The notes under the pieces: model-generated
Database searches by the model: none
What the model saw: the letters and a program-made list of their open reading frames with translations, nothing else
Told to the model about the DNA's origin: nothing
IMG/VR virus record: IMGVR_UViG_3300023184_000035
Coordinates: 84,134-148,133 of that record
Direction: 5' to 3' (one strand)
Length of the DNA stretch: 64,000 nucleotides
From: a virus
Translations under genes and position numbers: made by a program
Part shown: in pieces, positions 47,705-64,000 of the stretch
Layout of the letters: the number at the start of each line of letters is the position of its first letter
How positions within the stretch are numbered: the stretch's first letter is position 1

Positions 47705-48319
47705 ATGGAGCTAACATTACAACAACTAAAACAAATGGTGCCAGGCATACCCTATGCCGAACACTGGCTGGAAGCCCTGGATCAACTGCTGCCAGACTAC
47801 GAAATCAACACACCCGAACGCATTGCGGCTTTCATAGCACAGTGCGCACATGAGTCAGGTGGGTTTAAATTTATCAAAGAAAATTTAAATTACAAAGCCG
47901 CAAGTTTGCGCACAGTGTTTGGCAAATATTTCCCCACGGATGACTTGGCCAATGCCTATGCCAAAAAGCCTGAAATGATTGCCAACCGAGTGTATGCATC
48001 ACGCATGGGCAACGGTGACGAACACTCAGGTGATGGCTATCGCTATTGTGGTCGTGGACTTATCCAACTAACTGGCAAAAGCAACTATGAAAACTTTGCT
48101 GCCAGCTTGGAAATATCACCTGAAGAAGCAGCAGAATACCTGGCCACATTTGAAGGCGCCGCACAAAGCGCCTGCTGGTTCTGGGAAAGTAATAACTTGA
48201 ATGTGGAGGCTGACGCTGGCGACATCAAAAAGATGACCAAGAAGATCAATGGTGGTTATATTGGTTTAGAAGATCGTATTCATCACTATGAGAATGCATT
48301 AAAAATCATGGGAGCATAA
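47705..48319 (+). CDS. GH19 chitinase/lysozyme-like endolysin
   Basis: 204 aa. The catalytic helix has FIAQCAHESGGF with E50 the likely general acid, then YRYCGRGLIQLTGKSNYENF, the GH19 substrate-cleft signature, and NRVYASRMGNGDE. No signal peptide, so it needs the holin. It cleaves beta-1,4 glycan, in phages usually peptidoglycan. AAGGAG before ATG 47705. A second GH19 domain occurs inside the 60951 polyprotein. Confidence 0.92.
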   Translation: MELTLQQLKQMVPGIPYAEHWLEALDQLLPDYEINTPERIAAFIAQCAHESGGFKFIKENLNYKAASLRTVFGKYFPTDDLANAYAKKPEMIANRVYASRMGNGDEHSGDGYRYCGRGLIQLTGKSNYENFAASLEISPEEAAEYLATFEGAAQSACWFWESNNLNVEADAGDIKKMTKKINGGYIGLEDRIHHYENALKIMGA

Positions 48320-53664: not shown

Positions 53665-54450
53665 ATGACCGACTACTACGCCGCACTAGGCGTGCCAAAA
53701 ACTGCCACTGCTGACGATATCAAACGAGCCTTTCGTAAGTTGGCCAGCCAACACCATCCAGACAAGGGCGGGGATACTGCCAAGTTCCAGGCCATACAAC
53801 AGGCCTATGCCACACTAGGTGATGAACAAAAACGTGTGGAATACGACAATCCTAGACCACAATTTTCAGGATTCCATGGACACCCGGGTGGGGTAAACAT
53901 CAATGACATCTTTGGACAAATGTTCGGGCAACAGTTTGCGCACCAACATCAACAGCCGCGTAGAAGTCATGTGCGCATGACACTTTGGATCACACTGTTG
54001 GATGTGGCCACTGGTGGCAAGCGTACTGTAAGCCTGGGCACACAAAGCGGTGTGAGTGCTGTAGAAATTGAAATACCCCTGGGCATCAACGACGGGGACA
54101 ATGTGCAGTATGAAGGCATTGGTCCTGGTGGGTCGGACCTGGTGGTTAATTTTAGGATTTCACCAGATCGAACATGGATTCGTGAGGGGCTCAATCTCAC
54201 CATGGAGGTCCGACTGAATATTTGGAGTCTAATCTTGGGTGGTGATCTCACCATTGACACATTGACTGGCAAGACCCTGACTGTGAGCGTGCCTGAGCGC
54301 ACACAACCTGGCACCAGTTTGCGATTGAAAGCACAAGGATTGCGAGATCGATCAGGCAACACAGGAGATATTTTTGTGCGAGTACAGGCCACAATTCCCG
54401 ATAACATTGCGCCCGAAATCTTGGATGTTATCCGAAATCACCAAGAATAA
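53665..54450 (+). CDS. dnaJ: DnaJ/CbpA-type co-chaperone
   Basis: 261 aa. J domain at residues 1-65 with HPD at 31-33 ([11 protein letters not shown]), a short Gly/His/Gln linker, then two beta-sandwich C-terminal domains. The Cys-rich zinc finger of DnaJ is absent, so it resembles CbpA/type II DnaJ. It stimulates host DnaK (no phage DnaK in window). Own sigma70 promoter with no clear ribosome binding site. It may work with the ClpA-like unfoldase and GroES-like protein in a phage folding set. Confidence 0.93.
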
Positions 54451-54525: not shown

Positions 54526-56781
54526 ATGCAAAACAATCCCGAAATTGAACACATTGTAGAACAAGCAGTTAAAATTGCTCGAGACAAACATCACGAATAT
54601 GTGATAACAGAACATTTGTTGCTGAGCCTGGTCAGGCATGCACCGTTTAGAAAAACTCTAGACCGTTTTGGTGCGGAAGTTGCACAGATGGAGCAAGAAG
54701 TTGACACATATCTTGACAGTTTGAAACACCTTGTCAAAGCTGATGCTGACTTGCAACCAAGAAAAACACAGACCCTAGAACGCCTGTTTAATCGTGCCAA
54801 TGTGCAGGTCATGTTCACCGGACGCAGAACACTCACAACACTGGATTTGTACCTGAGTATCATGGCCGAAACCAACAGTCATGCACACTACTTCTTGCTC
54901 AAATACGGTGTGAAGAAAACTGAATTCTCAGACTTCTTTACCAAGAATTACACAGCTGGTGAAGCGTCCAAGATGAACATAAATCAAGCCAATGATATCT
55001 TGAACGAGTATTGCACCAATCTTACTGAAATGGCCAAGGCTGATCAGTTGGAACCGCTAATTGGACGCCAAACCGAACTGCACGAAATGATCACAGTAAT
55101 GGCACGCCGCTTCAAGGCCAATGTGCTCATGGTGGGAGATCCAGGTGTGGGCAAGACCTGCATTGTGGACGGACTTGCCCAAGAAATCATTGCTGGTCGT
55201 GTGCCTAAATTCATACAAGATCACGAAGTATGGGGGCTGGAAGTTGGCAGTTTACTTGCAGGATCCAAGTACCGTGGCGAGTTTGAAGAAAAGTTCAAGG
55301 CTGTGATTGCTGCTCTGGAAACCAAAAAGAACTGTATCCTGTTCATTGACGAAGCACACACCATGAAAGGTGCTGGTGCAGGGTCACAAAGTAGCCTGGA
55401 CTTTGCCAACATGTTGAAACCCGCAATCACCAAAGGACATTTGAAAGTGATTGCGTCAACCACCTGGGAAGAGTACTACGAATCATTTGAAAAGGATCGC
55501 GCACTCATGCGCAGGTTCTATCGTATCAGTATTGACGAGCCAGATACAGAAACCACAGAGAGAATCCTTGCTGGTCTAAGCCCCAGACTGGAAAAGTTTC
55601 ATGATGTAGTAATTGATCGCGCAGCCATGTTGGCCGCTGTGGAACTGGCCAACCGTTATATTCATGATCGTAAAAATCCTGACAAAGCCATTGACTTGTT
55701 GGATGCGTCATGCGCACGTGAACGTGTGAAAGATCAAGGTACCGTCACCATCACCAAGGAACTGATCCAAGCACAGGTAAGTCGTGTGGCCGGGGTGCCA
55801 GTGGATCGACTGCAAAATGAACGCAGTGCAAAGATCATGGATTTGGATTCAAACATCAAACAGAAATTGTACGGGCAGGATTCAGCCGTGGATGCTGTGC
55901 TGGAACGGGTGTATATCAACTTTGCCGGTATTGGCAATGACAAACGACCCATCTCAAGTTTCTTGTTCCTGGGCCCAACTGGCACAGGTAAAACTGAACT
56001 GGCCAAACTGTTGAGCGAACACTTGGAAATGAAACTGTTGCGCTATGACATGAGTGAGTACCAAGAAAAACACACAGTGTCAAGTTTAATTGGTGCACCT
56101 CCGGGCTATGTGGGCTTTGAAGATGGCAATGTGGGCGGCGGCAAACTGATTTCGGACATCAGCAAGAATCCCTATGCTGTGATCTTGTTTGATGAAATTG
56201 AAAAAGCACACTCGGATGTGACCAACATCTTGTTGCAGATGCTGGACGAAGGACATATCACCAGTGCAAACGGCAAACGAGTGGACGTGAAAAACTGCAT
56301 CATCATCATGACAAGTAACTTGGGCGCACAAGCCAACGATGCCAACAACATTGGGTTTGGTAGTTTGGAGAAATCGGGTGAAGAAGATCGTGCCATGAAA
56401 GACTTCTTCCGTCCTGAACTGCGCAATCGTATTGATCGTATCTGCAAGTTCAACAAACTGGACACACTGGCCATCAAGAAGATTGTGGTGAAGTTTGTGG
56501 ATGAACTCAAAGCCAGTATGACACACAAGAACATTCGATTGGTGCTGACCGAACCGGTTATTGACCATCTAGCTGACAAGGGCTATGACAGCAAAATGGG
56601 CGCACGTCCGCTGAGTCGCAAGATTGATGAACTGATCCGTGTGCCATTGAGCAAGCGGATCTTGTTTGATCGACTGGAAAACTGTACAATCACTGCTGTG
56701 ATGACAGAGGACGCTGTGGAGTTCATGATCGAACAGGACACTGTGACCAGTGTGAACACAGAAGGAATTATCATTGTATAA
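54526..56781 (+). CDS. ClpA-like AAA+ protein unfoldase
   Basis: 751 aa, ClpA size (758). N-domain (1-150) with EHIVEQAVKIARDKHHEYVI and TEHLLLSLV. AAA-1 Walker A GDPGVGKT (about 204-211) with LFIDEAHTMKGAGAG; AAA-2 Walker A GPTGTGKT (about 482-489) with FDEIEKAHSDVTNILLQMLD and RNRIDRI sensor motifs. No long ClpB coiled-coil middle domain. An NNIGFGS loop matches the IGF/IGL loop used to dock ClpP. It could redirect host ClpP or act alone in remodelling. No phage ClpP or ClpS seen here. Confidence 0.92.
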   Translation: MQNNPEIEHIVEQAVKIARDKHHEYVITEHLLLSLVRHAPFRKTLDRFGAEVAQMEQEVDTYLDSLKHLVKADADLQPRKTQTLERLFNRANVQVMFTGRRTLTTLDLYLSIMAETNSHAHYFLLKYGVKKTEFSDFFTKNYTAGEASKMNINQANDILNEYCTNLTEMAKADQLEPLIGRQTELHEMITVMARRFKANVLMVGDPGVGKTCIVDGLAQEIIAGRVPKFIQDHEVWGLEVGSLLAGSKYRGEFEEKFKAVIAALETKKNCILFIDEAHTMKGAGAGSQSSLDFANMLKPAITKGHLKVIASTTWEEYYESFEKDRALMRRFYRISIDEPDTETTERILAGLSPRLEKFHDVVIDRAAMLAAVELANRYIHDRKNPDKAIDLLDASCARERVKDQGTVTITKELIQAQVSRVAGVPVDRLQNERSAKIMDLDSNIKQKLYGQDSAVDAVLERVYINFAGIGNDKRPISSFLFLGPTGTGKTELAKLLSEHLEMKLLRYDMSEYQEKHTVSSLIGAPPGYVGFEDGNVGGGKLISDISKNPYAVILFDEIEKAHSDVTNILLQMLDEGHITSANGKRVDVKNCIIIMTSNLGAQANDANNIGFGSLEKSGEEDRAMKDFFRPELRNRIDRICKFNKLDTLAIKKIVVKFVDELKASMTHKNIRLVLTEPVIDHLADKGYDSKMGARPLSRKIDELIRVPLSKRILFDRLENCTITAVMTEDAVEFMIEQDTVTSVNTEGIIIV

Positions 56782-58435: not shown

Positions 58436-59938
58436 ATGACAACTGTAGTAATCATGCCCGGGGGTTTTCACCCTTTTCACCCAGGACACTTGGCGCTGTA
58501 TCAATCAGCACAACGTGCCTTTCCTGATGCCGAAGTTTACGTGGCCGCTACCAATGACAAGAGTGACAGGCCTTTTGATATCTCAGACAAACAAAAAATT
58601 GCCTATGCCGCAGGAGTTGAACCTGGACATTTTGTTCAAGTCAAGTCGCCATTTCGTGCAGAAGAAATTGCCAGTCAGTACAATCCCAATCAGGATGTTT
58701 TGATTTTTGTGCGCAGTGACAAAGACGCCAACACACAACCTCAGGCAGGTGGAGTTAAAAAAGACGGGTCTGCCAGTTATCTGCAACCGTTGTTGGGTGC
58801 CCGACGATTGGAACCATTCAGCAAGCATGCCTACATGGCGTATTTGCCCACTGTGGAATTTGGTCCTACTGACATGACTTCTGCCACACAGATACGAGCG
58901 GCATGGCCCACGCTCACACCCAAACGTAGACTGGCCCTGGTCATGAGCTTGTATCCCAACACACAACAAGATCCAGCAGGCGCACAGGATATTGTACGCA
59001 TATTTGATCAAACCATTGGCGGGATTGATGAAGACATCAGTCGTAGAGGATTCCTACGAGGCATGGGTGCAGCAGCTGGCTTGGCCGCAGCCGGCACAGT
59101 TGGTGCACAGGAAACTTCCAAACCTAATTTTATAGCCATTGTCAAAATTGGCGATGATGTTCGACAACTTGATCTTGGAAACAAATTTAACAGTTCCCAA
59201 GAAGCCTTGGAATTTGTTGGTAACATCTTGTCCAAAAAAGGACTGCAAGGTTACACTGTGAACATTGCTCGTGGTCAACCCAAGACAAATGAGAACCAAG
59301 GCTGGGCAGCAACATTGGAATCAGACGGCATCACCACAGGAACTGGTGTCACAGGCGGCATGCATGCTGGATATCAAGATCGTTATAACCAGCCCATTGA
59401 TGAACGTGACCTTGGTTCTAAGTTGGGTAGCAAGCGTGACCAGGGCAAAAGTGTTCGCAAGTGGCGCAAAGAGCGTGGGCTTGATGAGCAAGACTACTTG
59501 GACGAAGCTCGCACTGACCCCATCCAAGCTGCCACTGTGGACTTTTATCAAAATCAAGTTGGTGATGTTGATAAAAAGCCTGTGGACAACTATCGAGAAA
59601 TTGCTAGAAAATTACTGGGGCAAACAGAAAATCCTGGCATGCGTAAGAAAATCATGGATATTCTTGTGCAAGGAAATAAAAATCCCTACATCCAAGGCGG
59701 CATCATAACCACAGTGGCTGCCATAGTAAGTGGTGGGATTTTGAGCAGTGCCAATCGAATGGGCCTTACCCCACAACAAACCAACATGATGTTGCAGGCC
59801 ATATTAAACACAGTGGTTCCCACTGTGGTGTCTAGACTCAACGGCAAGAGTTGGGCTGATACTGCCAAATACACCCTGGCCTCAGCAGGCATAGGCACAG
59901 GCATTGCTGCCATGACCGAAACAGGTCGCAAAAAATAA
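58436..59938 (+). CDS. Polyprotein: cytidylyltransferase-like domain plus Tat-like segment and tail domains
   Basis: 500 aa. Residues 1-190 are a nucleotidyltransferase with GGFHPFHPGH (H15, H18), the HxGH signature of cytidylyl/NMN-adenylyl-type enzymes. At residues 197-199 is IDE, followed at once by DISRRGFLRGMGAAAGLAAA, which has the twin-arginine (SRRxFL) plus hydrophobic core of a Tat signal, but internal. The later regions (about 240-310, 330-390 with GLDEQDYLDEAR, and 390-500 with hydrophobic stretches) are not recognised. (L/I)xE motifs at domain joins suggest prohead-protease processing. Leaderless late start fixed by the catalytic motif. Confidence 0.78.
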   Translation: MTTVVIMPGGFHPFHPGHLALYQSAQRAFPDAEVYVAATNDKSDRPFDISDKQKIAYAAGVEPGHFVQVKSPFRAEEIASQYNPNQDVLIFVRSDKDANTQPQAGGVKKDGSASYLQPLLGARRLEPFSKHAYMAYLPTVEFGPTDMTSATQIRAAWPTLTPKRRLALVMSLYPNTQQDPAGAQDIVRIFDQTIGGIDEDISRRGFLRGMGAAAGLAAAGTVGAQETSKPNFIAIVKIGDDVRQLDLGNKFNSSQEALEFVGNILSKKGLQGYTVNIARGQPKTNENQGWAATLESDGITTGTGVTGGMHAGYQDRYNQPIDERDLGSKLGSKRDQGKSVRKWRKERGLDEQDYLDEARTDPIQAATVDFYQNQVGDVDKKPVDNYREIARKLLGQTENPGMRKKIMDILVQGNKNPYIQGGIITTVAAIVSGGILSSANRMGLTPQQTNMMLQAILNTVVPTVVSRLNGKSWADTAKYTLASAGIGTGIAAMTETGRKK

Positions 59939-60935: not shown

Positions 60936-60936
60936 C

Positions 60937-60944
60937 GGTAAATA
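60937..60944 (+). promoter_or_regulatory. Late promoter box, leaderless arrangement
   Basis: GGTAAATA ends 6 nt before ATG 60951, just after the upstream stop. No Shine-Dalgarno. Confidence 0.6.
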
Positions 60945-60950
60945 CAACTT

Positions 60951-63512
60951 ATGAACATTCATGAGTTGTCTACCTATAATCTTGCCGACGCAGTAAAGTT
61001 TCACCGCCGTCTCAATCCCAGAATCTGGGGGCGAGACGAGCATTTGCTTCCTGAAGTGCGTGAAAAATTACTCACCATTGCTGAGGACTTTCAAGAATTC
61101 TTGGGCGTTGACGATCTCAATGTTCAAGACATCACCATATCAGGCAGCAACGCAGCCTACTCCTATACAAAAAATTCTGACATTGACCTACACCTTGTGG
61201 TCGAGATGCCTGACGATCCTGTGTATCAGGAGCTGTTCACGGCAAAAAAATACCAATACAACTCTGAGCACAACATACGGATTGGTGGGGCCGAAGTAGA
61301 ACTGTATGTTCAGCCTGCAGATCAAGCGCACCACAGTCAAGGCATTTACTCGGTAAAAGACGGCGAGTGGATTCAAGTGCCGCAACGCAAACGTGCGCAG
61401 ATAGACGATACCTGTGTGCGTGACAAAACAGCAGATTTAGATTCAAGAATTCATGCTGCTGTCAAAAGTAAAAACATTGATGCCATCAGCACACTGTGGA
61501 CCAAGATTAAAACCATGCGTCAAGCAGGACTTGAACAACATGGTGAGTTTGGTTGTGAAAATATCTCTTTCAAATTGTTGCGCAACCAGGGTTGCATCCG
61601 ACTGCTTAAAGATGCGATGACTGCTGAAAAAGATCGCGGACTCAGTTTGCGTGAAACTCCTGCAAAACCATTCCGTTATGGATACGGTGCAGAAGTTGAC
61701 GAAGCCAGTCTAGCAGACATGCGATCAGCATTTGCTGCCACTGATGCCACACGCAAGCAAGAAGTGTTTCACAGTCCAGACGAATACAACAAGGTCATGA
61801 AGCAACGACAGGCCGCTGCTGATGAGCGTCAAGAAAAAATTGTAAAGATATCACGAGGCCCAGTAAAACCCTGGCCCATGGGTGTAAAAGAAGGCATGCA
61901 AAGTCAGCCTTACAGCACCAGTGATGGTGTTGCTGCCAGCACCAAACAGTTTTTAGAAGATGCAGAGTCTGATGACCAAACTCTTGTGCATGACTTTATT
62001 CAACACACTGCCATGGAACTGGGCATAGATCCCTTGCCTGAAATTCAGTTGCACACCGACCCTGAATGGAGCACACACAATCACAGTTTTGGTCGTTATG
62101 ACCCTGACACACATACGTTGAATGTCAGCATGCCCAATCGCCACATCCTGGATGTGTTGCGCACAGTGGCACATGAATTGGTGCATTGCAGTCAAAATCA
62201 ACAGCATGGTCACTTGCCTGATGATGCAGGTGAAACTGGCAGTGACTGGGAAAATGATGCCAATGCCCGAGCTGGTATCATCATGCGTGACTGGGCCAAC
62301 ACCCATCCCGAACATTTTGAATTGCCGGCTCTGCGCGAGAGTGTGAGTGATTACCAAATACACGATACTGAAAAATTGGATCGTGTGCTGGCCAAATGCT
62401 GTCAAATGATTGAACGTGGACAACAAACGGATCCTGAACGTTATGGGCAGGTGGCTGCGTGTATAATTGATCCTGATCACAACTATGTGTATGGCATCAA
62501 CTTGCCTGGCGCTGATGGCCGACGCCGACATGCTGAACGTGTGGCCATAGACCGATATCGTAAAACACATGGTGATGTTCCTGAAGGCAGTATTGTGGTC
62601 ACCACACTGAGTCCTTGCAATGCACCCATGGATGAACGTGCAGGGAAGAGTTGCAAAGACCTGTTGAATTCAGTGGGCATACACAAAGTGTATTGTGGAT
62701 ACATTGACCCTACTCAGCATGACGATGCCGACGCTGACTTCACTGTGGGGCTCACACAAAATGATGAGTTATGGGAAGCATGCAAAGCATTTGCTGACAC
62801 ATTCCTGCATGAAGATGAGCTAGAAGAAGGTTGGCGCAGTGCATTGGCCGGAGCCGCTGCCGCAGGTGCCATGGCATTTACACCAGCACCAGCCAACTCC
62901 ACAGCCGCACCTGCATTAAATCCCGCAGCACAACCCGCTGCCGTTCAACAAGTACAACAGACTGGGCCACAAGCTGCATTGACCAAAGCCGCACAGGCAG
63001 CAGGCATCAAAGGTACAGAACTGGCGCAGTTCATGGCACAATGTGAACATGAGAGTGGTAACTTTGCACACCTGGAAGAACTGGGCGGTAAAAATTATCT
63101 TGCCAAGTACGATCTCACAGTGAATCCTGCCAAGGCCAAGGCCCTGGGCAACACTCAAGCCGGAGACGGTGCCAAATACAAAGGACGTGGGTTTATACAG
63201 ATCACAGGCAAAGCCAACTATGCCAGTGCTGGACAGGCCCTGGGCATAGACCTAGTGAGCAATCCTGAGCTGGCTGCCAAACCTGACGTGGCTGCCAAAG
63301 TTGCTGTGTGGTACTGGCAGAATCGTGTGAAACCGTATGTGCAAGACTTTAGTGACACACGTGGGGTTACCAAACGCATCAATCCTGGCTTGCAAGGCTT
63401 GCAAGACCGAGTGGACAACTTCAAAGATTATCAACAACAAACAGCCACTGTGGCTGCACCACCAGCTAGAGTGGCAGCCGCACCACAGGCTCAACCAGGA
63501 CCAGCAGCATGA
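60951..63512 (+). CDS. Four-domain polyprotein: nucleotidyltransferase, zinc peptidase, deaminase, GH19
   Basis: 853 aa. (1) Residues 1-240: Pol-beta-type nucleotidyltransferase with SGSNAAYSYTKNSDIDLHLV (G65-S66, D77, D79). (2) About 330-460: zinc-peptidase-like with HELVH at 408-412. (3) About 470-620: cytidine-deaminase-like with HAE at 527-529 and zinc cysteines C556 and C568. (4) About 675-845: GH19 domain with AQCEHESGNF (E699/E701) and GRGFIQITGKANY. Between 3 and 4, LEE (624-626) is followed by GWRSALAGAAAAGAMAFTP, a signal-peptide-like segment, and an Ala/Pro linker. Leaderless late start. Probably cleaved and packaged; that is inference. Confidence 0.85.
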   Translation: MNIHELSTYNLADAVKFHRRLNPRIWGRDEHLLPEVREKLLTIAEDFQEFLGVDDLNVQDITISGSNAAYSYTKNSDIDLHLVVEMPDDPVYQELFTAKKYQYNSEHNIRIGGAEVELYVQPADQAHHSQGIYSVKDGEWIQVPQRKRAQIDDTCVRDKTADLDSRIHAAVKSKNIDAISTLWTKIKTMRQAGLEQHGEFGCENISFKLLRNQGCIRLLKDAMTAEKDRGLSLRETPAKPFRYGYGAEVDEASLADMRSAFAATDATRKQEVFHSPDEYNKVMKQRQAAADERQEKIVKISRGPVKPWPMGVKEGMQSQPYSTSDGVAASTKQFLEDAESDDQTLVHDFIQHTAMELGIDPLPEIQLHTDPEWSTHNHSFGRYDPDTHTLNVSMPNRHILDVLRTVAHELVHCSQNQQHGHLPDDAGETGSDWENDANARAGIIMRDWANTHPEHFELPALRESVSDYQIHDTEKLDRVLAKCCQMIERGQQTDPERYGQVAACIIDPDHNYVYGINLPGADGRRRHAERVAIDRYRKTHGDVPEGSIVVTTLSPCNAPMDERAGKSCKDLLNSVGIHKVYCGYIDPTQHDDADADFTVGLTQNDELWEACKAFADTFLHEDELEEGWRSALAGAAAAGAMAFTPAPANSTAAPALNPAAQPAAVQQVQQTGPQAALTKAAQAAGIKGTELAQFMAQCEHESGNFAHLEELGGKNYLAKYDLTVNPAKAKALGNTQAGDGAKYKGRGFIQITGKANYASAGQALGIDLVSNPELAAKPDVAAKVAVWYWQNRVKPYVQDFSDTRGVTKRINPGLQGLQDRVDNFKDYQQQTATVAAPPARVAAAPQAQPGPAA

Positions 63513-64000
63513 GAGCACATGAATTTTTACGTGAAGATGTTGAGAATTTTCCCATTGCCAATGTACGTAGACCCAATGGTGCCATTGGCAACCAAGGTGT
63601 GAACACGGAGCAAGCAGCCGATGTGTTGACTCATGCTGCCGGCATGCAGGTATCGCCAGACTGGACCATGCGACAGTTAGTGGATGCGCTACGGGCTGAT
63701 CCTGCGGCACAACAACGTCTGCGACAATTTGTGCAAAAAAATCCCATCACAGTGTCTGCCCTACCAGATGGTTCATATCATTTGCTGGATGGCCATCACA
63801 GAACATTTTTGCTGAACCTGCTGGGCGATGAAACAGTGCCTGCTATTGTTAAAGAAGGTGTGGCGGAAGGCTTGACAGAAGCAGCCATGTCTAACGCTGT
63901 AACATTTTTTAGAGGTGAGCCAATACTTTCACAAGAAAGATTAAATCAATTAAAATCAAGCATAGGCAAACCTTACCCTATACTAAGGAAAGAAGGATCA
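63509..64000 (+). CDS. ParB-like/possible ART protein, 3' end outside window
   Basis: 164 codons visible, no stop before the window edge; ATGA overlap with the polyprotein gene. The N-terminus MRAHEFLRE/D is capsid-targeting-like with L7-R8-E9. Residues 30-115 resemble a ParB-like domain: DWTMRQLVDALRADPAAQQR, then YHLLDGHHRTFLLNLL with the DGHHR motif. From about residue 130, TFFRGEPILSQERLNQLKSS could be the first strand and Arg of an ADP-ribosyltransferase domain, but too little is visible. A packaged internal protein injected with DNA is a reasonable hypothesis. Confidence 0.72.
   Translation, partial: MRAHEFLREDVENFPIANVRRPNGAIGNQGVNTEQAADVLTHAAGMQVSPDWTMRQLVDALRADPAAQQRLRQFVQKNPITVSALPDGSYHLLDGHHRTFLLNLLGDETVPAIVKEGVAEGLTEAAMSNAVTFFRGEPILSQERLNQLKSSIGKPYPILRKEGS

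Follow-up and report, generated by a model that had tools for sequence, protein, structure and literature searches.

The analysed window is the final 64 kb of a viral contig from IMG/VR (148,133 bases), the source of which is a large environmental T4-like jumbo phage. At the contig's end, an open reading frame (ORF) of 853 amino acids runs on the + strand from ATG to TGA (60951..63512, exact ends confirmed). Four domains were located in it, all on the + strand. A nucleotidyltransferase (NTase) domain (aa 8-233, 60972..61649; G65 S66, D77, D79, E117) was identified by structural modelling, Foldseek and phrog_36119 (E 1e-40), and a metallopeptidase domain (aa 340-456, 61968..62318; HELVH at 62172-62186) by an AlphaFold2 model, Foldseek and its conserved motif. 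A deaminase domain (aa 464-613, 62340..62789; HAE 527-529, C556, C568) and a GH19 glycan hydrolase domain (aa about 673-825, 62967..63425; HES motif at residue 700) were each identified by Pfam, modelling and Foldseek.

The Pfam matches of the deaminase (dCMP_cyt_deam, aa 476-583, E 7e-11) and the GH19 domain (Glyco_hydro_19, aa 685-792, E 6e-14) exceeded the curated cut-offs, the NTase match was weak (NTP_transf_2, aa 56-101, E 0.03), and the HELVH region had no Pfam match. In AlphaFold2, the NTase/peptidase part was modelled at pLDDT 80 with linkers below 50 at aa 235-249 and 303-337, and the deaminase/GH19 part at pLDDT 75 with a linker below 50 at aa 621-670. The top Foldseek matches of the NTase model were AAD(9)/AadA/MNT nucleotidyltransferases, those of the deaminase model were RibD/TadA/dCMP deaminases, and those of the GH19 model were GH19 endolysins (9ms7 at TMt 0.76); the GH19 part also matches endolysin families (phrog_181). 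The top match of the peptidase model was jannalysin (4jix, E 0.10, prob 0.95), and support for its minigluzincin-like fold is therefore modest, the weakest among the four domains. G65 S66 and D77xD79 of the NTase were invariant in 40 sequences, HELVH 408-412 was invariant among the five closest relatives, and the deaminase residues were conserved in 13 loci. Models and motifs together support four enzyme folds in one chain: an ANT/MNT-like NTase, a mini-gluzincin-like peptidase, a deaminase and GH19. The original prediction, which had read one ORF with four enzyme domains and had named the deaminase residues HAE and C556/C568, thus holds on the exact frame and on structure prediction of its segments, with the reservation about the peptidase.

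A profile search against IMG/VR yielded 129 relatives, and 80 were retrieved. Among the 49 distinct relatives longer than 500 aa, the NTase was common to all and the peptidase to most, while the remainder varied by locus as shuffled tails (560-2560 aa overall). The HELVH peptidase was also encoded as a stand-alone ORF with its own leader at two loci (L104 and L107). In one relative (L099), roughly 1065 aa of a 2073-aa open frame come before the NTase, which may therefore not be the leading module in every case. The earlier statement that no standard phage protein has this domain order was upheld among INPHARED phages (50,697 records), where the whole four-domain architecture was absent and the deaminase module had no match, but not in IMG/VR, where L003/L040 (1183 aa, 82% identity) carries the order of the window together with additional modules.

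Short motifs of the form [LIV]xE lie between the modules of the polyprotein (a bar marks the putative cut, + strand throughout). The NTase module ends at LRE235|T (61647..61655), a putative prohead-protease site in the low-pLDDT linker, where relatives read LSLRE|A or similar. The following linker (aa 236-336, 61656..61958) contains the candidate sites VDE251|A, VKE314|G and FLE336|D, as judged from the model and motif positions. By motif position, LRE463|SVSDYQ (62331..62339) marks the peptidase/deaminase junction, and deaminase modules at other loci likewise begin after a [VILF]xE|[SN] site. Putative sites LHE621|D and LEE626|G (62805..62828) lie in the low-pLDDT linker of the deaminase/GH19 junction. 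By sequence, L/I-x-E sites thus sit at the expected processing positions, and several LxE triplets are also found inside folded domains. Inspected by eye, the junctions of the long relatives showed [LIVM]xE with A, S, G, N or D as the next residue.

All ORFs of the loci were then compared, a junction being defined as the start of a module that opens one ORF and is internal in another. For example, MRAQEFVAE|AFDNPY at an N-terminus corresponds to VDE|AFDQPY or ITE|AFDQPY at internal positions. [LIVMF]xE was present at 207 of 305 internal junctions (68%) vs 28.5% of random positions in the same proteins, counted over related sequences and not independent events. The control motifs xD and xQ gave 0.7-fold, xK 1.3-fold, and xS and xA at most 1. 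The table includes start-call artefacts (a ClpB fragment accounts for 35 rows, 4 with the motif), and the real share is therefore likely higher than 68%. Global tripeptide counts over polyprotein tails gave no clear LxE excess, the excess being confined to junctions.

T4 prohead protease gp21 cuts after L/I-x-E (PMC9026906), and the T4 internal proteins IPII and IPIII have the N-terminus MKTYQEFIAE|A. A similar leader was found at the studied loci, where 145 distinct proteins start with M[RK]xxEF. Of these, 116 have I, V or L at residue 7, and 97 (67%) have E at residue 9, vs 9% overall. N-terminal LxE was not enriched across whole genomes, only in the M[RK]xxEF class. The polyprotein itself starts with MNIHELSTYN, which is no T4-type capsid-targeting leader. 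The next gene (63509..64000, +), which runs off the contig, encodes the leader MRAHEFLRE|DVENFPIANVRR, with D directly after the site, and a ParB-like module; this module also occurs internally, behind NLRE|DIENFPIANVRR in L006 and behind NLRE|D in L038 as well. A neighbouring gene similar in kind to the polyprotein gene (58436..59938, +) encodes an HxGH nucleotidylyltransferase domain, a hidden Tat signal and then unknown modules. Its site IDE199| and the signal DISRRGFLRGMGAAAGLAAAGTVGA (aa 200-224) span 59018..59107 (+); they were recognized by eye and by Pfam TAT_signal (E 0.003, below its cut-off). Earlier in the window, a DnaJ-like gene (53665-54450) adjoins a gene for a ClpA/ClpB-type double AAA+ ATPase (54526-56781); in the relatives inspected (L006, L007), this phage chaperone pair likewise precedes the polyprotein cluster.

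Upstream of the polyprotein gene, the element CGGTAAATA (60936..60944, +), whose TAAATA starts 12 nt before the start codon, is consistent in sequence with a T4-type late promoter. The looser form NNTAAATA was present before the polyprotein gene, and the strict T4 late promoter TATAAATA was absent there. A TAAATA element was close upstream of most related polyprotein genes, and CGGTAAATA was also close upstream of the portal gene in two larger relatives (G009 and G010). At a distance of 10-32 nt, NNTAAATA precedes 29 of the 199 ORFs of the window's contig (1.1 expected) and 59 of the 382 ORFs of G009 (1.7 expected), structural genes included. About 15% of the ORFs in these two contigs thus carry TAAATA, 25-35 times expectation, resembling a T4-like late regulon.

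Pfam S77 (gp21-type protease) and Gp23 had no match in the 148-kb contig of the window or in the five first relatives searched, all five being fragments without the head region; S77 is unseen in the window's contig because this too is a fragment without head genes. An S77 protease was found in the larger relatives G009 (E 2e-23) and G010 (E 9e-25), where portal-, scaffold- and major-capsid-like genes adjoin it. Of 9 further large contigs bearing the GH19 or Tat (signal-led) module, 8 encoded it too. In all ten capsid proteins seen, the N-terminal propeptide contained [LI]xE (YLKE|NASAG, for example), and such motifs were numerous in the scaffold.

Virion evidence came from the cultured cyanophage S-CREM2. 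Mass spectrometry of CsCl-purified S-CREM2 virions detected 52 of 219 ORFs, and its authors warn that some detected proteins may have co-purified (PMC10665884). The leader rule derived from T4 selected four S-CREM2 ORFs at the true start (6, 13, 136 and 154), and all four are present in the published virion proteome. ORF156, the homologue of the polyprotein's NTase (34% identity, E 5e-38), was detected in the virion with 6 unique peptides and 15.2% coverage (PMC10665884); it is a stand-alone protein and no polyprotein, as is the NTase of cultured cyanophages, a separate protein of about 237 aa. The proteome also includes ORF155, ORF137 and ORF160 (PMC10665884), the last two of which contain several small modules with [LIV]xE linkers. 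ORF154 was considered as an orthologue of the window's HxGH protein and was not treated as such, because the shared stretch was only weak (29% over 66 aa). Another cultured cyanophage, Synechococcus phage S-SRM01 (L243, 6462-8291), has between its terminase and tail genes a gene for a 609-aa protein (QPX48171.1) in which small basic modules are joined by [LIV]xE linkers, one of which reads GVDE|SAAALLRAGLAAGTALAGM.

Directly after LEE626 of the polyprotein lies a signal-peptide-like segment, GWRSALAGAAAAGAMAFTPAPA (aa 627-648, 62829..62894, +), which would become N-terminal if the chain were cut at E626. Neither the [LIV]xE junctions nor this segment before GH19 had been part of the original prediction. 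Hydrophobic segments were scanned without the [LIVMF]xE motif as input, and signal strength was assessed by simple rules. The scan gave 30 distinct hydrophobic segments lying inside module proteins; 20 of them begin 2-11 aa past [LIVMF]xE, compared with 28 of 262 in other proteins (Fisher p 4e-11; these counts, too, cover related sequences and not independent events), and no comparable excess was seen with D, Q, K or S in place of E. A GH19 set was assembled from a search seeded on the catalytic domain only, together with the GH19 modules already collected. It comprised 57 distinct proteins with a recognizable core, 55 of them with a hydrophobic segment ahead of the domain; [LIVMF]xE was found 2-11 aa upstream of the segment in 51 of the 55 (42 Sec-like and 9 Tat), and the control motifs in 14 (xD), 3 (xQ) and 4 (xK).

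The segments after [LIV]xE come in Tat, Sec-like and lipobox types. Short forms place them directly behind a leader, as in MRINEVIDE|DISRRGFLGG... (L207), MRSYEFISE|IDRRGFLGALGAG... (L157) and MFLNELFEKDVDE|GWKDWAAGAAIGAAAL... (L163). One downstream module carries a Tat signal in most loci and a Sec-like one in L087, where it was recognized through homology of the region behind the signal; the Tat-module search pattern contained SRRG, and its matches are therefore no independent test. Lipobox-like cysteines shortly after [LIV]xE inside polyproteins were noted in L048 (10001-12913, VSGC), L056 (3003-7514, LAAC), L065 (274-5154, LSGC) and L066 (5623-7311, LVGC), and these proteins are possible injected lipoproteins.

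The original prediction had also ended the chain with a lytic domain. Simple lysis fits poorly with the window, which encodes a separate ordinary GH19 endolysin (47705-48319; phrog_181 E 7e-77), followed by small membrane-protein-like ORFs and likely the lysis gene of the phage. Ordinary GH19 endolysins of the same genomes have the domain from the first residues, with no site, leader or signal, whereas the polyprotein's GH19 has the signal-like segment, and this suggests action in the periplasm during entry, not lysis at exit. Given the separate endolysin and the virion-type processing sites ahead of the polyprotein's domain, a further lysis enzyme acting in the producing cell is improbable, despite the match of the GH19 part to endolysin families.

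Taken together, these observations favor, with somewhat better than even confidence, a packaged polyprotein that is cut by an S77 protease after [LIV]xE and whose GH19 part is exported at entry. The polyprotein would be made late and packed into the prohead of the T4-like jumbo phage, where a gp21-type protease would cut after [LIV]xE between modules, freeing the nucleotidyltransferase, the small metallopeptidase, the deaminase and the GH19 wall hydrolase. The final cut at LEE626|GWRSALAG... would give the GH19 part an N-terminal export signal. After ejection with the DNA, this part would reach the periplasm of the new host via Sec or Tat, and the NTase, peptidase and deaminase would remain in the cytoplasm. 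Packaging is well supported, and cutting at the [LIV]xE sites is probable; we infer the cutting itself, the injection, the export and the role of each enzyme. The original prediction of a packaged, injected cargo cut into parts is partly supported; among the readings it has the best support, through the junction motif, the protease of the relatives and the virion homologues. It had named no protease. A broader proposal is that environmental T4-like phages use the capsid-maturation protease to switch on Sec, Tat and lipoprotein signals within packaged polyproteins, whereby every injected module is sorted to a compartment of its own in the next host; this proposal is tentative and falls a little short of an even chance. 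Signals buried inside the polyprotein would, on this proposal, be silent in the producing cell.

The same features were weighed against other readings. The chain might be packaged and cut as above, with the hydrophobic segments serving as membrane anchors or contacts that aid entry of DNA or protein. Many segments are indeed Ala/Gly-rich with weak n-regions (GWKDW carries no net side-chain charge), and this alternative has perhaps one chance in four. It does not account easily for the SRRGFL twin-arginine motifs and lipobox cysteines (LVGC, LSGC, VSGC) at the same position or for the downstream module that is Tat in most loci and Sec-like in another, and wall hydrolases are the most frequent cargo, in one case (L039) preceded by a LysM-like stretch.

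Cutting of the packaged polyprotein by its own HELVH metallopeptidase, with the prohead protease uninvolved, is unlikely. Nearly all long relatives have a zincin-like domain, and that role was proposed for zincins by Iyer et al. 2017 (PMC5512222), but ORFs that lack the peptidase, among them short leader-plus-cargo ORFs, have the same [LIV]xE junctions, which match both S77 specificity and the capsid-protein sites of the relatives' genomes. More doubtful still is an uncut multidomain cytoplasmic protein whose linkers merely resemble cutting sites and whose signals were left over from fused secreted proteins. The [LIV]xE motif is short and not enriched over whole polyprotein tails, as that reading would have it; however, only junctions, and only the E form of the motif, show the enrichment, modules placed behind a leader start at the same E|x point as their homologues, and homologues are present in the S-CREM2 virion.

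The proposed packaged and S77-cut polyprotein resembles several known systems without coinciding with any. Polyvalent proteins of phages and conjugative elements combine many unrelated domains and are predicted to be injected with DNA; self-processing by zincins has been proposed for them, and Pol-beta NTases were reported only from conjugative elements (Iyer et al. 2017, PMC5512222). The window's protein shares with them the disparate domains in one chain (NTase, peptidase, deaminase, GH19) and a zincin-like metallopeptidase (common there, not obligatory; here HELVH 408-412), and lysozyme and ParB-like domains are common to both systems. In contrast, the window system has prohead-protease sites at junctions and hidden export signals, and signal peptides are unmentioned in the main text of that paper (PMC5512222). 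The T4 internal head proteins IPI-III and Alt have a capsid-targeting sequence and are processed by gp21 (PMC9026906, PMC5694885). The L/I-x-E motif, the variable cargo, the S77 protease of the relatives and the leaders on neighbouring genes are shared with them, but T4 internal proteins are single-cargo, whereas several cargos are joined per chain here and the cuts would expose Sec, Tat or lipoprotein signals; the polyprotein was not classed as a T4 internal protein because the T4-type leader is absent.

S-CREM2 ORF154-156, ORF137 and ORF160 (PMC10665884) offer a homologous NTase, the same small basic modules and [LIV]xE linkers, but there the NTase is a separate 237-aa protein with no fused peptidase, deaminase or GH19. 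SAR/Sec-signal phage endolysins likewise join a wall hydrolase to an export signal. Unlike in those enzymes, the signal lies mid-precursor (aa 627-648) and not at the N-terminus of the primary product, and activity is predicted at entry, not exit. Nor is the polyprotein's GH19 a stand-alone gene like a lysis-cassette endolysin, a role that 47705-48319 fits. No account of protease-unmasked signals in phage cargo was found in the literature covered, which was open-licence papers; if demonstrated, such unmasking would itself be novel.

If the proposed system is true, injected multi-enzyme proteins and T4 head processing would be united in one testable system, with a third idea added, that of export signals active only after capsid maturation. 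Many 'hypothetical' proteins that lack annotation in T4-like jumbo phages and cyanophages would be cargo modules, and leader, [LIV]xE and cargo would form a simple rule for finding injected effectors. It would also show how wall enzymes or lipoproteins could reach the periplasm of the new host from its interior and yet be harmless in the producing cell.
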